Shown here piece by piece: positions 38,936-44,677 of a DNA stretch of 64,000 nucleotides. Where the stretch lies: positions 2,210,769 through 2,274,768 of the forward strand of contig CP136575.1 in the NCBI GenBank assembly GCA_035196065.1. Direction: 5' to 3'. Below the pieces are notes generated by a model. The model was not told the DNA's origin. It was given only the letters and a program-made list of their open reading frames with translations, and did no database searches. The position numbers and the translations under genes are program-made. Positions within the stretch are counted from its first letter, which is position 1. Every line of letters begins with the position of its first letter. This stretch comes from Sphingobium sp. (GTDB lineage: Bacteria > Pseudomonadota > Alphaproteobacteria > Sphingomonadales > Sphingomonadaceae).

Positions 38936-39012
38936 CGGGGAGTAGCTCAGCCTGGTAGAGCACTGTCTTCGGGAGGCAGGGGCCGGAGGTTCGAATCCTC
39001 TCTCCCCGACCA
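38936..39012 (+). tRNA. tRNA-Pro (CGG)
   Basis: A 77-base cloverleaf with acceptor stem CGGGGAG/CTCCCCG, D arm AGCTCAGCCTGGTAGAGC, anticodon stem-loop CTGTCTTCGGGAGGCAG giving anticodon CGG, T arm with GGTTCGAATCC, discriminator A and encoded CCA. Confidence 0.97.
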
Positions 39013-39062: not shown

Positions 39063-41210
39063 ATGGCTATCGCGTTTTGGATGCAAGCGCGCATAGTCAT
39101 TGTCGACGACAGGTCCACGAACCTGCGCATTTATGCGCAGTTTGTTGCCATGATGGGCCCAAATTTTTCCTCCAAATGCTTCCAAAGCGCCGTCGATGCG
39201 CTGCGCTGGCTCGAAACAGAGCCAGCAGATTTGTTGATCGTCGACTATCGCATGCCGGAAATGAATGGCGCAGATTTCATTCGCGCCATCCGCAGCAAAA
39301 CGAGCGGCCGGAATGTGCCGGCAATCGTCATCACCGCACGACAGGATCGTGAATGCCGGATCGCAGCGCTTGACGCAGGCGCGACCGATTTCCTCCAGAG
39401 CCCGGTGACCGACAGCGAATTTCGCGAACGCGCGCTTTTGCTGATTGGCCAGCACCGCAAGAGGATCGAACTAGAACAGCGGGCTGCCGAGCTCTCATCA
39501 GATGATGCCAAAGACGAGACGGCGAACGGCAAATCGATGCTCGAGCAGATTATCGATACAACGCCGATCCTGATCAACGCGACCGATCGCAACGGCAAAT
39601 TCCTGTTCATGAACAGCTATCAGTCGGCAATGTTCGGCGTTGAACCCGAACTGCTTGTCGGGCGTCCGATAAGCGAGATGCTCGACCCGCCACTTGCCGA
39701 GCGCGAACTGCGTCGCAACGCGCTGATCCTCGAAAGTGGGCAATCAATCCCGAACTATGAAGAAGTTTTCGATAGCGAGGGAATCGAACTAACCTTCCAC
39801 TGCAACAAATCACCGCTTCGCAACAAGGAAGGCCAGATCATCGGGGTGCTCACGTCCGCACTCGACATCACTGCCCGCAAATTTGCCGAAGAACATCGCG
39901 CCCACCTCGCATTGCATGACATGCTCACCGGCCTGCCCAACCGGGCATTGCTCGCTGAAAACATGCGCCACGCGATTGAAGAATGCGCGACGACGGACAG
40001 CAAGGCCGCCTTGCTGCTGGTCGATCTCGACCGGTTCAAGGTTATTAACGACACACGCGGTCACCAGACTGGCGACATGCTGCTGCGGCAGGTGGCGGAA
40101 CGGATCAACGGGGCGCTGGGTGCCAATGAACTGGCGGCCCGCATTGGCGGCGACGAATTCGCACTGATCCTGCGCAACATTGAATCGATCGAAGACGTAA
40201 GCCATCGTTGCCAAGCATTGCTGACGCAGATCGGCCGCCCCTATTCGCTGGGCGGCGTAGATCAGTTGATCGGTGCCAGCATCGGTATCGCCATCATTCC
40301 AGACGATGGCAATTCACCTGATGAACTGCTGCGCGTCGCCGATCTTGCCATGTATGAAGCGAAATCGAACGGCCGGAATTGCCACTGTTTCTTTTCACCG
40401 CAATTGAACCAGATCGCCCAATTCAATGCCGGCGTCGAAGCAGACCTACGCCGGGCGATTGATCGCGATGAATTCTTTCTTGAATATCAACCAATTGTTG
40501 ATTCAAGTTCAACTGAAATCTGCGGCTTGGAAGCCCTTGTGCGCTGGCAACATCCAACGCGCGGTCGTTTGATGCCCAGTGAGTTTCTCCGCGTTGCCAA
40601 TGATTCCGGATTGATCGACCGCATCGGCACATGGGTGATTGATGCCGCCTGCCGACAGATTTCGGCGTTCGAAAAAGAGGGCATCAACCTGCCCCATATC
40701 GCAGTCAATGTATCGCCACGACAATTTCAGTCGATCAATATTGCAGCGGAAATCCTGAATGCCATGGAGCGGCATAATGTCGCATCGGACCGGATCGTTG
40801 TTGAAATCACCGAGGAATTGTTGCTCGATCAAAGCCCCGATCTGATGCAGCAACTTATCGAGTTGCGCAGCAACGGCATCGAGCTTTCGATCGACGATTT
40901 CGGCACCGGCTATTCATCGCTGCAATATCTGCGCGATCTGCCGGCCAACCGCCTGAAAATCGACCGGACGTTTATTGCCCGGATCGAACAATCCAGTGTC
41001 GACCGCGCCATCATCTCAACGATCGCGCATCTTGCTCACGCGCTTGATATGCGCGTGGTGGCCGAAGGCGTTGAGAATGAAACACAAAAATCGCTGCTCC
41101 GCGCAGCCGGTTGTGATGAACTTCAGGGCTATCTCTTCGGCCGGTCGCTATCCGTCGACCAGTTACAGGAAATGTTCGCACCCGTTCATGCGGCACGGAG
41201 CAGCATGTAA
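39063..41210 (+). CDS. REC-PAS-GGDEF-EAL c-di-GMP regulator in the RpfG position
   Basis: The 715-residue protein has a receiver domain (residues about 9-130; VIVDDRSTN, phosphoacceptor D61 in LLIVDYRMPEMNG), a PAS domain (about 155-280), a GGDEF domain with intact GGDEF at 362-366, and an EAL domain with E490-A-L, SIDDFGTGYSSL, LKID and AEGVE motifs intact. The RxxD inhibitory site before GGDEF is absent (NELA). The normally invariant receiver lysine is Ser113 (LQSPVTD). Phosphodiesterase activity looks complete; cyclase activity is possible. It overlaps the downstream RpfC-like kinase by TAATG, so that kinase is its likely phosphodonor. An internal ATG at 39081 is an alternative start. Confidence 0.92.
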   Translation: MAIAFWMQARIVIVDDRSTNLRIYAQFVAMMGPNFSSKCFQSAVDALRWLETEPADLLIVDYRMPEMNGADFIRAIRSKTSGRNVPAIVITARQDRECRIAALDAGATDFLQSPVTDSEFRERALLLIGQHRKRIELEQRAAELSSDDAKDETANGKSMLEQIIDTTPILINATDRNGKFLFMNSYQSAMFGVEPELLVGRPISEMLDPPLAERELRRNALILESGQSIPNYEEVFDSEGIELTFHCNKSPLRNKEGQIIGVLTSALDITARKFAEEHRAHLALHDMLTGLPNRALLAENMRHAIEECATTDSKAALLLVDLDRFKVINDTRGHQTGDMLLRQVAERINGALGANELAARIGGDEFALILRNIESIEDVSHRCQALLTQIGRPYSLGGVDQLIGASIGIAIIPDDGNSPDELLRVADLAMYEAKSNGRNCHCFFSPQLNQIAQFNAGVEADLRRAIDRDEFFLEYQPIVDSSSTEICGLEALVRWQHPTRGRLMPSEFLRVANDSGLIDRIGTWVIDAACRQISAFEKEGINLPHIAVNVSPRQFQSINIAAEILNAMERHNVASDRIVVEITEELLLDQSPDLMQQLIELRSNGIELSIDDFGTGYSSLQYLRDLPANRLKIDRTFIARIEQSSVDRAIISTIAHLAHALDMRVVAEGVENETQKSLLRAAGCDELQGYLFGRSLSVDQLQEMFAPVHAARSSM

Positions 41211-43714
41211 TGGCGCGCTTTTTCCCCCGAAAACCGAAACTGGACCCGGAACAGGAAATCCTGCTCAACCGGATGGTGATGGGTGGCAGCGCGGCACTGG
41301 CGGTTAGTCTGTTCATGACCGACGGGTTCATCCTGTCGTCCTTCATCATCTATCTGACGCTGAACACCGCGCTTTTTCTGATGCACCGCCAGAGCATCTG
41401 GCCGCAGGAACGGCGCTGGGTCGCCGCGATCATGCTGGACATCGGCATGGCATTCGCCGTCATGACGCGATCAGCGGAAACTATGTCCTTTTTCTATCCG
41501 CTTTTCCTTTGGGTTATCCTGGGCAACGGGTTCCGTTTCGGCGTCCGCTATCTCTACATTGCCTCCACACTCTCAGCGATCGCATTTGGGACCGTGGTTC
41601 TTACAACCAATTACTGGGCGACGAACCAGATATTGGGGATCAGCCTGACCTTGGCCTTGATCATCATACCCCTGTATTGCGGCACGCTGATCAAAAAACT
41701 GTCCCGTGCAAAGGAAGAGGCCGAAACAGCGAACCGCGCCAAAAGTTACTTCCTCGCCAGCGTCAGCCACGAGTTGCGAACACCGCTCAATGCCATCATC
41801 GGTTATGGCCATCACCTGAAACAGGTGGGCCTGCCCAAGAACCAGCATGATATGGTTGATGCCAGTGTGCTCGCAGGTGAACATCTGCTCCATTTGATCG
41901 ACCAGTTGATCCAGATTGCACGCAGCGATTCAAACCGCGCAGAGGTGATCCGCCGTCCCATGCGCCTGACCGACATCATGACCGAAATTCGCGATATCAT
42001 GATCGTCCGCGCAGACGAAAAATCGCTGGCGTTACAGATATCGGCCGAACCGTTGAGCGACCAGTTGATCGATGCACCTGCGGAAATCATCCGCAATATC
42101 CTGCTGAATCTTACCGGCAATGCCATCAAGTTTACCGAGGCAGGCACTGTCGCGATCAGCGGCGGGATCAACACTCAGGGGGAAACGTCCGAAATATGGT
42201 TTGCGGTTTCGGATACCGGCATCGGCATATCGCAAGACGCAGTCGGCCGTATTTTCGAACCATTCCAGCAGGCCGATGATACCGTGATGAACCGTTTTGG
42301 CGGCACGGGCCTTGGCCTCGCCATTTGCCAGCAGCTTGTACAGCAGGTTGGCGGAAACATCCGTGTCGACAGCAGCATCGGGCTTGGCAGCCGCTTTACC
42401 GTGACAATTCCCGCAAATATTGCACACGAAATGGCTACCGCCGACAGCGATGAAATGTCGGGCGACGAACATACGCGCATCCTTGCCATTGGTCGCTTCG
42501 ACGCCGATTTACTTGCCCGCGCGCAATCCGCCGGAAACTTCCTGGTCCGCGCAAGTGCGTGCCCGGATGCATCCGCGCTTGCCGACGCGATCGCCCAAGT
42601 TGATCTATCCGAATATGATCTTGTCATGCTCGACCAGCATATCGCGCAAGGCATCAAACAGGACGATCCGGTTTGGGAAAAATTTGACAAGGCAGAACTC
42701 AGCACGGTTCTTGTGTCCAATGACAGCGTCCCCGATCTTTCCGAAGTTTCAATCCGCGCAGCATTTGCATCGATCATCCCCCCCGATGCAGGCTTTGACG
42801 AATTGCGCAGCGCCATCCGGATCGGCCGTTCGTTCGCGCATCGGGTGCACTTCGATGATACCCGCGCACCAGAAACGCCGGCACCGACAAAGCGAACGGG
42901 CCGCAATATCCTTGTCGCGGACGATAACCGCACCAACCGCAACATCCTGGCCACAATATTGGAAGCAGCCGGCCATCAGGTCGCCCAAGCATGTGATGGC
43001 GATGAGATGCTCGATATTCTTGAAACAGAAACGTTCGATCTTGTGCTGCTCGACGTCAACATGCCGCGCCTGAACGGCATCGATGCCTGCAAGATGTGGC
43101 GGCAGATTGAAGGCGGACGTGAGCACCTGCCGATCATTGGTGTGACCGCCGATGCGACCAGCGAAACTGAAATACGCTGCCTTGATGCTGGCATGGATAT
43201 GCGCCTGACCAAACCGATCAACGCGAAACTCCTGCTAGAGACTATCGATTCGATATGCAGCGCCGGCGACGCTTCCGCCTCGACCGCAGACATCAATGAT
43301 CCGCTGGGCAAAGTGGTGGCATTCCAGCCAGTTGCGAGCCGCAGCGAGACGTCGCCCGCACTCGACCCAGCCCATATCGAATATCTGCGGTCAATCGGCG
43401 ATGCCAGCTTTGTCGCCAGCATGTTCGAAGGCTTTGAGGAAGACGCAGCCGACAGCCTTCACCTAATGAAGGAAGCGTTGAACTGCGCCGATCCCGAGAA
43501 ATTCCGCTTTGCCGCGCATGCTTTCAAAAGCAGCGCCACCAACATCGGCGCGACGCGCATGGCGGCATTGGGCGCAAAACTCGAAAAAATTACCGAAATT
43601 GATTTTGACACCAATGGTCGAAACTATCTGGCGACCATCGAGACAGAGTTGCAGCGAATTACAACTGAGGCCGCCTTACTAAGTGATGGCGGCAACCAGG
43701 CAGCAGCCGGCTAA
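41210..43714 (+). CDS. rpfC: RpfC-like hybrid histidine kinase (5-6 TM, HisKA-HATPase-REC-HPt)
   Basis: The 834-residue protein has an N-terminal membrane region of five or six helices with FLWVILGNGFRFGVRYL, closely recalling the IGNGLRYG segment of RpfC. HisKA follows with H187 in SVSHELRTPLNAIIG, then HATPase (NLTGNAIKFTE, DTGIGI, GGTGLGLAIC). A degenerate receiver-like stretch lies at about 420-545, then a true receiver with D615 (LLDVNMPRLNG), and an HPt domain with H770 (AAHAFKSSATN). This domain order is that of RpfC, the DSF sensor of Xanthomonas. It is coupled to the upstream GGDEF-EAL gene and convergent with the rpfF-like gene. Confidence 0.86.
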   Translation: MARFFPRKPKLDPEQEILLNRMVMGGSAALAVSLFMTDGFILSSFIIYLTLNTALFLMHRQSIWPQERRWVAAIMLDIGMAFAVMTRSAETMSFFYPLFLWVILGNGFRFGVRYLYIASTLSAIAFGTVVLTTNYWATNQILGISLTLALIIIPLYCGTLIKKLSRAKEEAETANRAKSYFLASVSHELRTPLNAIIGYGHHLKQVGLPKNQHDMVDASVLAGEHLLHLIDQLIQIARSDSNRAEVIRRPMRLTDIMTEIRDIMIVRADEKSLALQISAEPLSDQLIDAPAEIIRNILLNLTGNAIKFTEAGTVAISGGINTQGETSEIWFAVSDTGIGISQDAVGRIFEPFQQADDTVMNRFGGTGLGLAICQQLVQQVGGNIRVDSSIGLGSRFTVTIPANIAHEMATADSDEMSGDEHTRILAIGRFDADLLARAQSAGNFLVRASACPDASALADAIAQVDLSEYDLVMLDQHIAQGIKQDDPVWEKFDKAELSTVLVSNDSVPDLSEVSIRAAFASIIPPDAGFDELRSAIRIGRSFAHRVHFDDTRAPETPAPTKRTGRNILVADDNRTNRNILATILEAAGHQVAQACDGDEMLDILETETFDLVLLDVNMPRLNGIDACKMWRQIEGGREHLPIIGVTADATSETEIRCLDAGMDMRLTKPINAKLLLETIDSICSAGDASASTADINDPLGKVVAFQPVASRSETSPALDPAHIEYLRSIGDASFVASMFEGFEEDAADSLHLMKEALNCADPEKFRFAAHAFKSSATNIGATRMAALGAKLEKITEIDFDTNGRNYLATIETELQRITTEAALLSDGGNQAAAG

Positions 43715-43726
43715 AATACTTGGCTA

Positions 43727-44677
43727 TTATACCGCCGACAAGGAACGGCGAATCCGTCTGTCCTGCGCATCAGCAAGGCGTTCCATCTTCCGGACATCAG
43801 CCTCCGTCAATGTTAAGGCTGTCTCTGCCCAGATGTTGGTAATCTCCAACAATTCTTCGAGTTCAACCGGATTGGAAACCCGCCGCGCGCGGTAAACCGC
43901 CCTTTCGGCTGCAAATCGGTTGGAATTCCGGCGGCAGTAATCGACGATGGCATTTTCGCCCTCGCCATCTTCAGCGAGGATATCAACGATACCCATGTCA
44001 TGAAGTTCAGCAGCGGTGTAGATCTTGCCTTCCAAGATGAACTTTTCGGCCATTTTCCGTCCGACCCGCCGACGCAGGAAGCTGTAGGCGCCCATGCCGG
44101 GAAAAAGGTTGAATACGATTTCCGGCAAGCCAAGACGTGCGCTGCGTTCCGCGACCAAAATGTCAAACGCCAGGGCATGTTCAAAACCGCCGCCAAGCGC
44201 GTCACCCTGTACCAGCGCCATGGTGATGATCGGCGCACCGAATGCGTTGTAATTGGCATATTGCATCCGCACGCAAGTTTCAGCGTAGCGGCGCATCGCG
44301 GCCAGGTCGCGGGAACGTATACATTCGGCAAAATGACGCAAATCGCCGCCCAGATTGTAGATGCCCGGGGTTTTCGAACCGCATACAAAGTAACGCAGAT
44401 CATCCGGCCCGCCATTTGCGGGGCGCCCATAATTATCGGCTAGCCAATCCTGAACCTGCTGAACCTCTGCACCGAGGCTGTAGGTATAGCTGGGGCGACC
44501 GACCTGATTCATAAAACACCAGAAAATCTGGTCGTTGCGGTCGTGGCGCAGCAATATCTCGTCGAAATGGCGTCCCAAAATCGAAGCGCCAAACTGTTCG
44601 CCTGCACCGAATTGCGGTTTTACCAAGTCGAGAAACGAACGCTGAATACCGTCAGAAAGACGGGTGTAGGTAGCCAT
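43727..44677 (-). CDS. rpfF: RpfF-like DSF synthase, crotonase superfamily
   Basis: RpfF is a dual thioesterase/dehydratase that turns 3-hydroxyacyl-ACP into cis-2-enoic fatty-acid signals (DSF). The 316-residue protein from the ATG at 44677 (GAGG upstream) has QGDALGGGFEHALAFDILVAE, in part, and LGLPEIVFNLFPGMGAYSFL. The two glutamates E166 and E186 are 20 residues apart, matching the catalytic pair E141/E161 of Xanthomonas RpfF. The FNLFPGMGAYSFL stretch distinguishes RpfF from ordinary enoyl-CoA hydratases. It ends 12 bases from the end of the convergent rpfC-like gene. Confidence 0.86.
   Translation of the reverse strand: MATYTRLSDGIQRSFLDLVKPQFGAGEQFGASILGRHFDEILLRHDRNDQIFWCFMNQVGRPSYTYSLGAEVQQVQDWLADNYGRPANGGPDDLRYFVCGSKTPGIYNLGGDLRHFAECIRSRDLAAMRRYAETCVRMQYANYNAFGAPIITMALVQGDALGGGFEHALAFDILVAERSARLGLPEIVFNLFPGMGAYSFLRRRVGRKMAEKFILEGKIYTAAELHDMGIVDILAEDGEGENAIVDYCRRNSNRFAAERAVYRARRVSNPVELEELLEITNIWAETALTLTEADVRKMERLADAQDRRIRRSLSAV

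Follow-up and report, generated by a model that had tools for sequence, protein, structure and literature searches.

The locus described here raises the question of whether an alphaproteobacterium makes a fatty-acid signal of the diffusible signal factor (DSF) type and couples it to cyclic di-GMP, and, if it does, whether that signal is read in the same way as in Xanthomonas. The locus lies in a stretch of 64,000 nucleotides from a Sphingobium sp. genome (contig CP136575.1, positions 2,210,769 to 2,274,768), hereafter the window, and consists of genes for a response regulator (GE), a sensor kinase (C) and a crotonase (F). Two modes of DSF perception, RpfC/RpfG and RpfR, are named in excerpts of a 2026 review (PMC13220807), and a preliminary description of this DNA had proposed that the locus merges the two. 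Our analysis makes it fairly probable that the locus is a DSF-type fatty-acid signalling module. Judged from the sequence, production of a fatty-acid signal and its coupling to cyclic di-GMP appear likely, and it does not appear likely that the same signal is sensed in the same way as in Xanthomonas. The features of the locus are these:

GE, 39063-41210, plus strand: 715 amino acids (open reading frame list and Pfam), RpfG-type response regulator with exchanged output
C, 41210-43714, plus strand: 834 amino acids (open reading frame list and Pfam), RpfC-type hybrid histidine kinase
Kinase input domain, 41210-41704, plus strand: amino acids 1-165 of C, modelled as six helices
F, 43727-44677, minus strand: 316 amino acids counted from ATG, RpfF-type (DSF synthase-like) crotonase converging on the kinase gene

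Gene order and the RpfF-type enzyme

GE and C form a coupled operon converging on F (39063-44677), in which the stop codon of GE and the ATG of C share one base (TAATG) and 12 bases separate the stop codon of C from that of F on the opposite strand. As the preliminary description had stated, this is the Xanthomonas-like order. The rpfG-rpfC/rpfF loci of Xanthomonas and Stenotrophomonas have in common with the window the order, the convergence, the RpfF glutamates, a homologous kinase input domain and an RpfG-type receiver, but the window differs from them in having PAS-GGDEF-EAL for HD-GYP and diverged DSF-contact residues in the kinase. The proposed conservation of the three genes is borne out: the same order and orientation are found in 36 of 39 related genome-contig loci, and the other three (L042, L053 and L058) end at contig ends. 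Among the 36 complete loci, GE is truncated in L062 and C lies in two frames in L046. The kinase gene is found in 38 of the 39 loci, the last one being cut by the contig end, and L039 matches the window almost exactly. We conclude that the module is a genuine alphaproteobacterial variant of the Rpf/DSF system and that it is conserved.

The enzyme F carries the Pfam domain ECH_1, and its best matches in the PDB are 7zq7 (4.6e-54), the RpfF structures 3m6m (1.9e-51) and 6dgn (4.0e-45), and 5fus (5.8e-45). The entries 7zq7 and 5fus are deposited as 'crotonase/enoyl-CoA hydratase family protein' and 'putative enoyl CoA hydratase', respectively, and we take both for RpfF proteins. After these four, the best further crotonase match of F in the PDB is at 4.4e-17, about 28 orders of magnitude weaker. 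Identity of F is 43.8% to 3m6m (210 columns), 33.7% to 5fus (255 columns) and 34% to 6dgn. F scores 353 bits with NCBIfam PRK08788 (cut-off 177) and 217 bits with the RpfF model NF053515, below its cut-off of 550. However, NF053515 is narrow and does not cover the whole RpfF family, because the RpfF of L225, which stands beside 5fus and 6dgn in our tree, falls short too (184 bits); so does L229 (361 bits), and L218, beside 7zq7, passes (579 bits). Both E166 and E186, presumably the catalytic glutamate pair, are present in F with a spacing of 20 residues, and each is kept in 24 of 24 RpfF rows of the window architecture; among the remaining RpfF rows, aspartate stands at the first position in L209 and at the second in L210, L211 and L214.

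The RpfF tree came from a quick search over 124 rows, which comprise 118 RpfF-like sequences (including four PDB stretches) and six crotonases of the window's own genome; like the kinase alignment it took in 13 of the 39 related loci, and its placement of L206, L209, L222 and other long rows is unsure. In this quick tree the branch separating the RpfF set from the six own-genome crotonases has a value of 100 in the Shimodaira-Hasegawa-like approximate likelihood ratio test, which rules out F as an ordinary enoyl-CoA hydratase; the clustering with such hydratases that had been named as a possible refutation was not found with these six. The F of the window falls in a clade (support 98) whose 21 rows are Sphingomonadaceae loci sharing its architecture, and the RpfF proteins 5fus and 6dgn, from the Burkholderia/Cronobacter side, fall in a separate RpfF clade (support 99). 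Outside the tree, the closest relatives of F are a 100% match in a Sphingomonadales metagenome-assembled genome (MAG) and matches of 82-84% in Sphingorhabdus and Sphingomonadaceae MAGs. The claim of a DSF-type module is supported: an RpfF with both glutamates groups with the solved RpfF structures, and beside it are an RpfC-type kinase and a cyclic di-GMP regulator.

The regulator GE and its exchanged output

In GE, Pfam finds REC, PAS_4, GGDEF and EAL in this order:

REC, amino acids 11-123 (acceptor D61)
PAS_4, amino acids 165-273
GGDEF, amino acids 283-439
EAL, amino acids 460-694

The HD-GYP output of RpfG is not found in GE by Pfam and GGDEF-EAL stands in its place, with the GGDEF motif at 362 and the EAL motif at 490 both intact and no RxxD just before GGDEF; of the proteins in the RpfG position two were scanned, L218 and L228, and Pfam finds HD_5 in both. 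The comparison is extended by a set of 14 alphaproteobacterial regions with 11 family codes (group B: L185 and L187-L199), which have the same three positions and homologous REC-PAS, kinase and RpfF, but in which the regulator is REC-PAS-HisKA-HATPase instead of REC-PAS-GGDEF-EAL, so that a second histidine kinase serves as its output. Against regulators of the same architecture the receiver of GE reaches 84-216 bits, against group B 78-103 and against seven proteins in the RpfG position 61-91, versus at most 47.5 against the receivers fetched from its own genome; for receivers and PAS domains alike, this own-genome background consists of the proteins whose loci were retrieved, a subset of all such proteins. 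By these scores the receiver is of the RpfG type, which agrees with the earlier proposal that the HD-GYP of RpfG has been replaced.

The PAS domain of GE scores 19-91 bits against the 14 group B regulators, 13 of them above 30, and the REC-PAS module as a whole 127-193 bits against group B. Against six RpfR-type proteins, the PAS domain reaches at most 14.6 bits, the own-genome PAS background being at most 19.0. The GGDEF-EAL part scores 311 bits against a paralogue of the same genome; with seven proteins of RpfR-type loci the values are 187-303 bits, and with 15 further GGDEF-EAL proteins next to RpfF they are 272-338. These values bear on the possibility of an RpfR-like hybrid, in which the PAS domain of GE would bind the signal directly and control the EAL domain, giving the locus two sensors. 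Such a hybrid would account for the identical PAS-GGDEF-EAL order, and the Burkholderia/Cronobacter RpfF-RpfR system does likewise pair a PAS-GGDEF-EAL protein with a convergent RpfF homologue. In RpfR, according to excerpts of PMC6361424, the Burkholderia diffusible signal factor (BDSF) is held by S169, N172, Y183, R187 and N202; when we mapped this numbering onto GE, the corresponding residues were E, R, I, E and N, so that the equivalent of N202 is kept and the other four are absent. The window further differs from RpfF-RpfR in having a receiver in the place of the FI domain, a membrane kinase, and PAS and GGDEF-EAL parts unlike those of RpfR, the PAS being at background and the GGDEF-EAL resembling RpfR no more than it resembles a paralogue of its own genome. 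We consider the hybrid highly improbable, and the PAS scores, the GGDEF-EAL scores and the four missing contact residues rule out GE as a merger with Burkholderia RpfR; the proposal that two DSF-sensing designs are merged in the locus is abandoned. As judged by these comparisons, GE is an RpfG-like regulator with an exchanged output, and its likeness to RpfR is one of common domain order only.

A REC-PAS tree of 30 rows splits the window type from group B with support 100/99, L203, which has GGDEF-EAL, standing on the group B side, and the GGDEF-EAL regulators are monophyletic in 0% of 200 bootstrap trees. The output was swapped on a receiver-PAS module that itself is conserved, and probably on more than one occasion.

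The sensor kinase and the proposed relay

Behind its membrane region, C has HisKA, HATPase_c, REC and Hpt domains by Pfam, and the phosphorelay residues are intact (H187 in HisKA, D615 in REC and H770 in Hpt), the acceptor D61 of GE being present as well. The input domain has a single match in its own genome. It is homologous across all architecture groups, 13 columns being invariant among 18 diverse kinases, and all 51 aligned kinases have E14, R21, R69 and R109 (window numbering). A second kinase with an RpfC-type input domain is also seen at L196:7142-9487, on the opposite side of rpfF.

From gene order, conservation, homology and residues, all of which are observed directly, we infer the following biochemical steps. 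F would dehydrate a 3-hydroxyacyl-acyl carrier protein and release a cis-2-unsaturated fatty acid, and C would sense this acid or a related lipid via its membrane input domain. C would autophosphorylate at H187, and the phosphate would be relayed through D615 and H770 to D61 of GE. Phosphorylated GE would alter cyclic di-GMP, and either direction is possible because the GGDEF and EAL motifs of GE are both intact; net hydrolysis upon phosphorylation would be a guess. The REC domain of C may in addition bind F and keep it in check, if Xanthomonas is taken as the model.

The AlphaFold2 model of the input region (33 rows) has a mean predicted local distance difference test score of 80.9, a predicted template modelling score of 0.61 and six helices (13-35, 39-60, 66-87, 89-110, 112-132 and one from 140 that continues into the dimerisation helix), besides a short one at 134-138. 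The kinase structure alignment took 32 of 38 kinase references, those left out being L046 (stop codon), L058, L064, L068, L039 and L042. A Foldseek search of the model against the PDB gave no match at E <= 0.001 and hence no solved relative of the membrane part; the top matches are histidine-kinase dimerisation regions, and the membrane cyclase Rv1625c (7yzk) is matched weakly, at E 0.28. All 51 kinases, which as relatives are no independent sample, carry more lysine plus arginine in loops 58-70 and 107-114 than in the other three loops (33-41, 85-92 and 131-141). Because of this excess, the N-terminus of C would be cytoplasmic by the positive-inside rule. The published RpfC model has five helices and a 'putative' periplasmic N-terminus (PMC5391125), and in the available excerpts of that paper no topology experiment was found under the terms topology, PhoA, periplasm and inverted membrane. 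Together with the six-helix model of window positions 41210-41704, the charge pattern points to a sensor segment on the cytoplasmic side in RpfC-type kinases, contrary to the published model.

Signal contacts, gene neighbourhoods and meaning of the module

Several observations weigh against reading the locus as a DSF-type module, and the loss of the BDSF-holding residues in GE described above is one of them. Another concerns the kinase. In excerpts of PMC5391125, R15, D17, S18, E19 and Q22 of Xanthomonas RpfC are required for DSF binding, and a change of S18 or Q22 to alanine eliminates it. We mapped these positions by motif spacing, Xanthomonas campestris RpfC itself standing outside the alignment, and found K, D, P, E and I in C. 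All five residues are kept in none of the 21 kinases of the window clade, in which E19 alone is invariant and the Q22 position is I, M, V or T throughout (21/21). The complete set occurs, unlike in the window, in 13 of the 15 kinases of group B; it occurs also in 6 of 12 from outside the class and in one of three window-type kinases from other alphaproteobacterial families. Because no kinase of the window clade keeps the five residues, either the signal or the way in which it is contacted is probably unlike that of Xanthomonas. It might still be argued that DSF or BDSF is made and sensed here as by RpfF and RpfC and that the changed N-terminal residues are neutral, as the Xanthomonas-like gene order, the homologous input domain with its four constant residues (E14 being RpfC E19) and the identity of F to 3m6m would suggest. 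However, proline and isoleucine occupy exactly the two positions at which alanine eliminates DSF binding, and Q22 is replaced in the entire window clade whereas group B largely retains the set. We regard this canonical sensing as unlikely. Of the earlier reading, the RpfC-like sensor kinase stands, and the sensing of the same DSF is weakened by the diverged contact residues. Tentatively, we speculate that the window clade uses a private fatty-acid language, in which the RpfF/RpfC pair has departed from classical DSF and a cytoplasmic sensor segment reads the signal from the cell inside or the inner leaflet.

The remaining points against a DSF-type module come from distribution and neighbourhood. 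Our family sample comprised 298 Sphingomonadaceae genomes (RpfF cut-off E <= 1e-40) and our class sample 385 Alphaproteobacteria. RpfF is found in 101 of the 298, in 11 of these with at least 51% identity to the window RpfF. The input domain is found in 15, which include all 11, so that 90 of the 101 RpfF-positive genomes are without the kinase input domain; conversely, four of the 15 (G042, G224, G255 and G260, with input-domain frames of 561-642 residues) have no RpfF match. Where a Sphingomonadaceae genome has a kinase with an RpfC-type input domain but no RpfF match (L266, L267, L268 and L269), that kinase possibly listens to foreign signals. We also annotated 100 regions around RpfF genes, a selection of RpfF matches that takes in 54 of the family's 101, using domain models built from the window. 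The window type is seen in seven regions of Sphingomonadaceae and in three more, L203, L205 and L207, each of which comes from a different alphaproteobacterial family. The other 47 Sphingomonadaceae regions (L137-L183) comprise 11 of group C, described below, and 36 with no regulator beside RpfF, of which L155 and L161 are short contigs. An amidotransferase reading frame beginning with MCGIAG is found in 26 of these 36 (for example L144, L150, L157 and L180) and in none of the 11 of group C; we take the regions holding it to be a likely exosortase/exopolysaccharide locus. In addition, the RpfF tree does not settle how the window clade branches relative to the Xanthomonas-type clade and to the remaining alphaproteobacterial rows, and a promoter and terminator scan gave one promoter-like site versus 4.0 expected by chance.

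These neighbourhoods would fit a purely metabolic role, in which F, as an acyl-ACP (acyl carrier protein) dehydratase or thioesterase, provides fatty acids for exopolysaccharide or lipids, the two-component pair does no more than regulate F, and there is no signalling between cells; in excerpts of PMC4517397, Stenotrophomonas RpfF variants are likewise suggested to be unspecific thioesterases. Such a role is hard to square with the sensor kinase in all but the one cut window-type locus or with the class sample, in which RpfF and the input domain each occur in 24 of 385 genomes and together in 22 (Fisher p = 2e-31, the genomes being related and not independent), RpfF alone in G041 and G577 and the input domain alone in G341 and G610. 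We consider the metabolic role quite unlikely. Our confidence in a DSF-type signalling module is nevertheless lowered, because 90 of the 101 family genomes with RpfF are without the kinase and 26 of the 36 regulator-less regions share another neighbourhood.

In group C (L137-L143, L146, L148, L167 and L170), RpfF converges on a GGDEF-EAL protein, mostly of about 650-700 amino acids. These loci share with the window an RpfF convergent with a cyclic di-GMP enzyme but differ in being without a kinase and in having a hydrophobic, conserved N-terminus of about 220 amino acids, for which no Pfam match was found in the four of 11 scanned. A diverged FI-PAS, an RpfC input domain and the window PAS were each rejected for this N-terminus (hhalign probabilities 0.1-0.2%). 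Group C is possibly a third, kinase-free DSF-type design in Sphingomonadaceae. Outside the class, RpfF stands beside REC and kinase, kinase alone or RpfR-type PAS-GGDEF-EAL.

The host genome is a single contig of 3.02 Mb, and the module is present in three of six sampled genomes of the window's own genus code. An inner ATG of GE at 39081 is the alignment start for many of its relatives and may be the true start. A PHROGs search gave no match. Upstream of the module, and outside it, lies one further feature:

tRNA-Pro(cgg), 38936..39012, plus strand: found by ARAGORN

Searches of open-licence papers, which may have missed an earlier report, gave no description of a sphingomonad or alphaproteobacterial DSF module and none of group B loci. 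According to excerpts, alphaproteobacteria hold the RpfC-RpfG pair by KEGG (PMC8895600), DSF synthesis genes were inferred in 35 of 39 beetle-associated operational taxonomic units with sensing proteins in Stenotrophomonas only (PMC7498683), and PMC10304161 is a Xanthomonas study. The alphaproteobacterial setting had been called notable in the preliminary description; with RpfF in 24 of 385 genomes, DSF-type modules occur in about 6% of the sampled Alphaproteobacteria and are not unusual there. One receiver type with three outputs, HD-GYP, histidine kinase and GGDEF-EAL, offers natural variants of the coupling between a fatty-acid signal and cyclic di-GMP. The loss of the contact residues in one lineage and their retention in a sister lineage provide a test of their role, and the supposed periplasmic position of the sensor becomes open to test through the charge pattern of the input domain. 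If the private language is true, the contact residues would have been lost in the very lineage whose regulator has GGDEF-EAL, and the signal would be read without the periplasmic hooking of the RpfC model.

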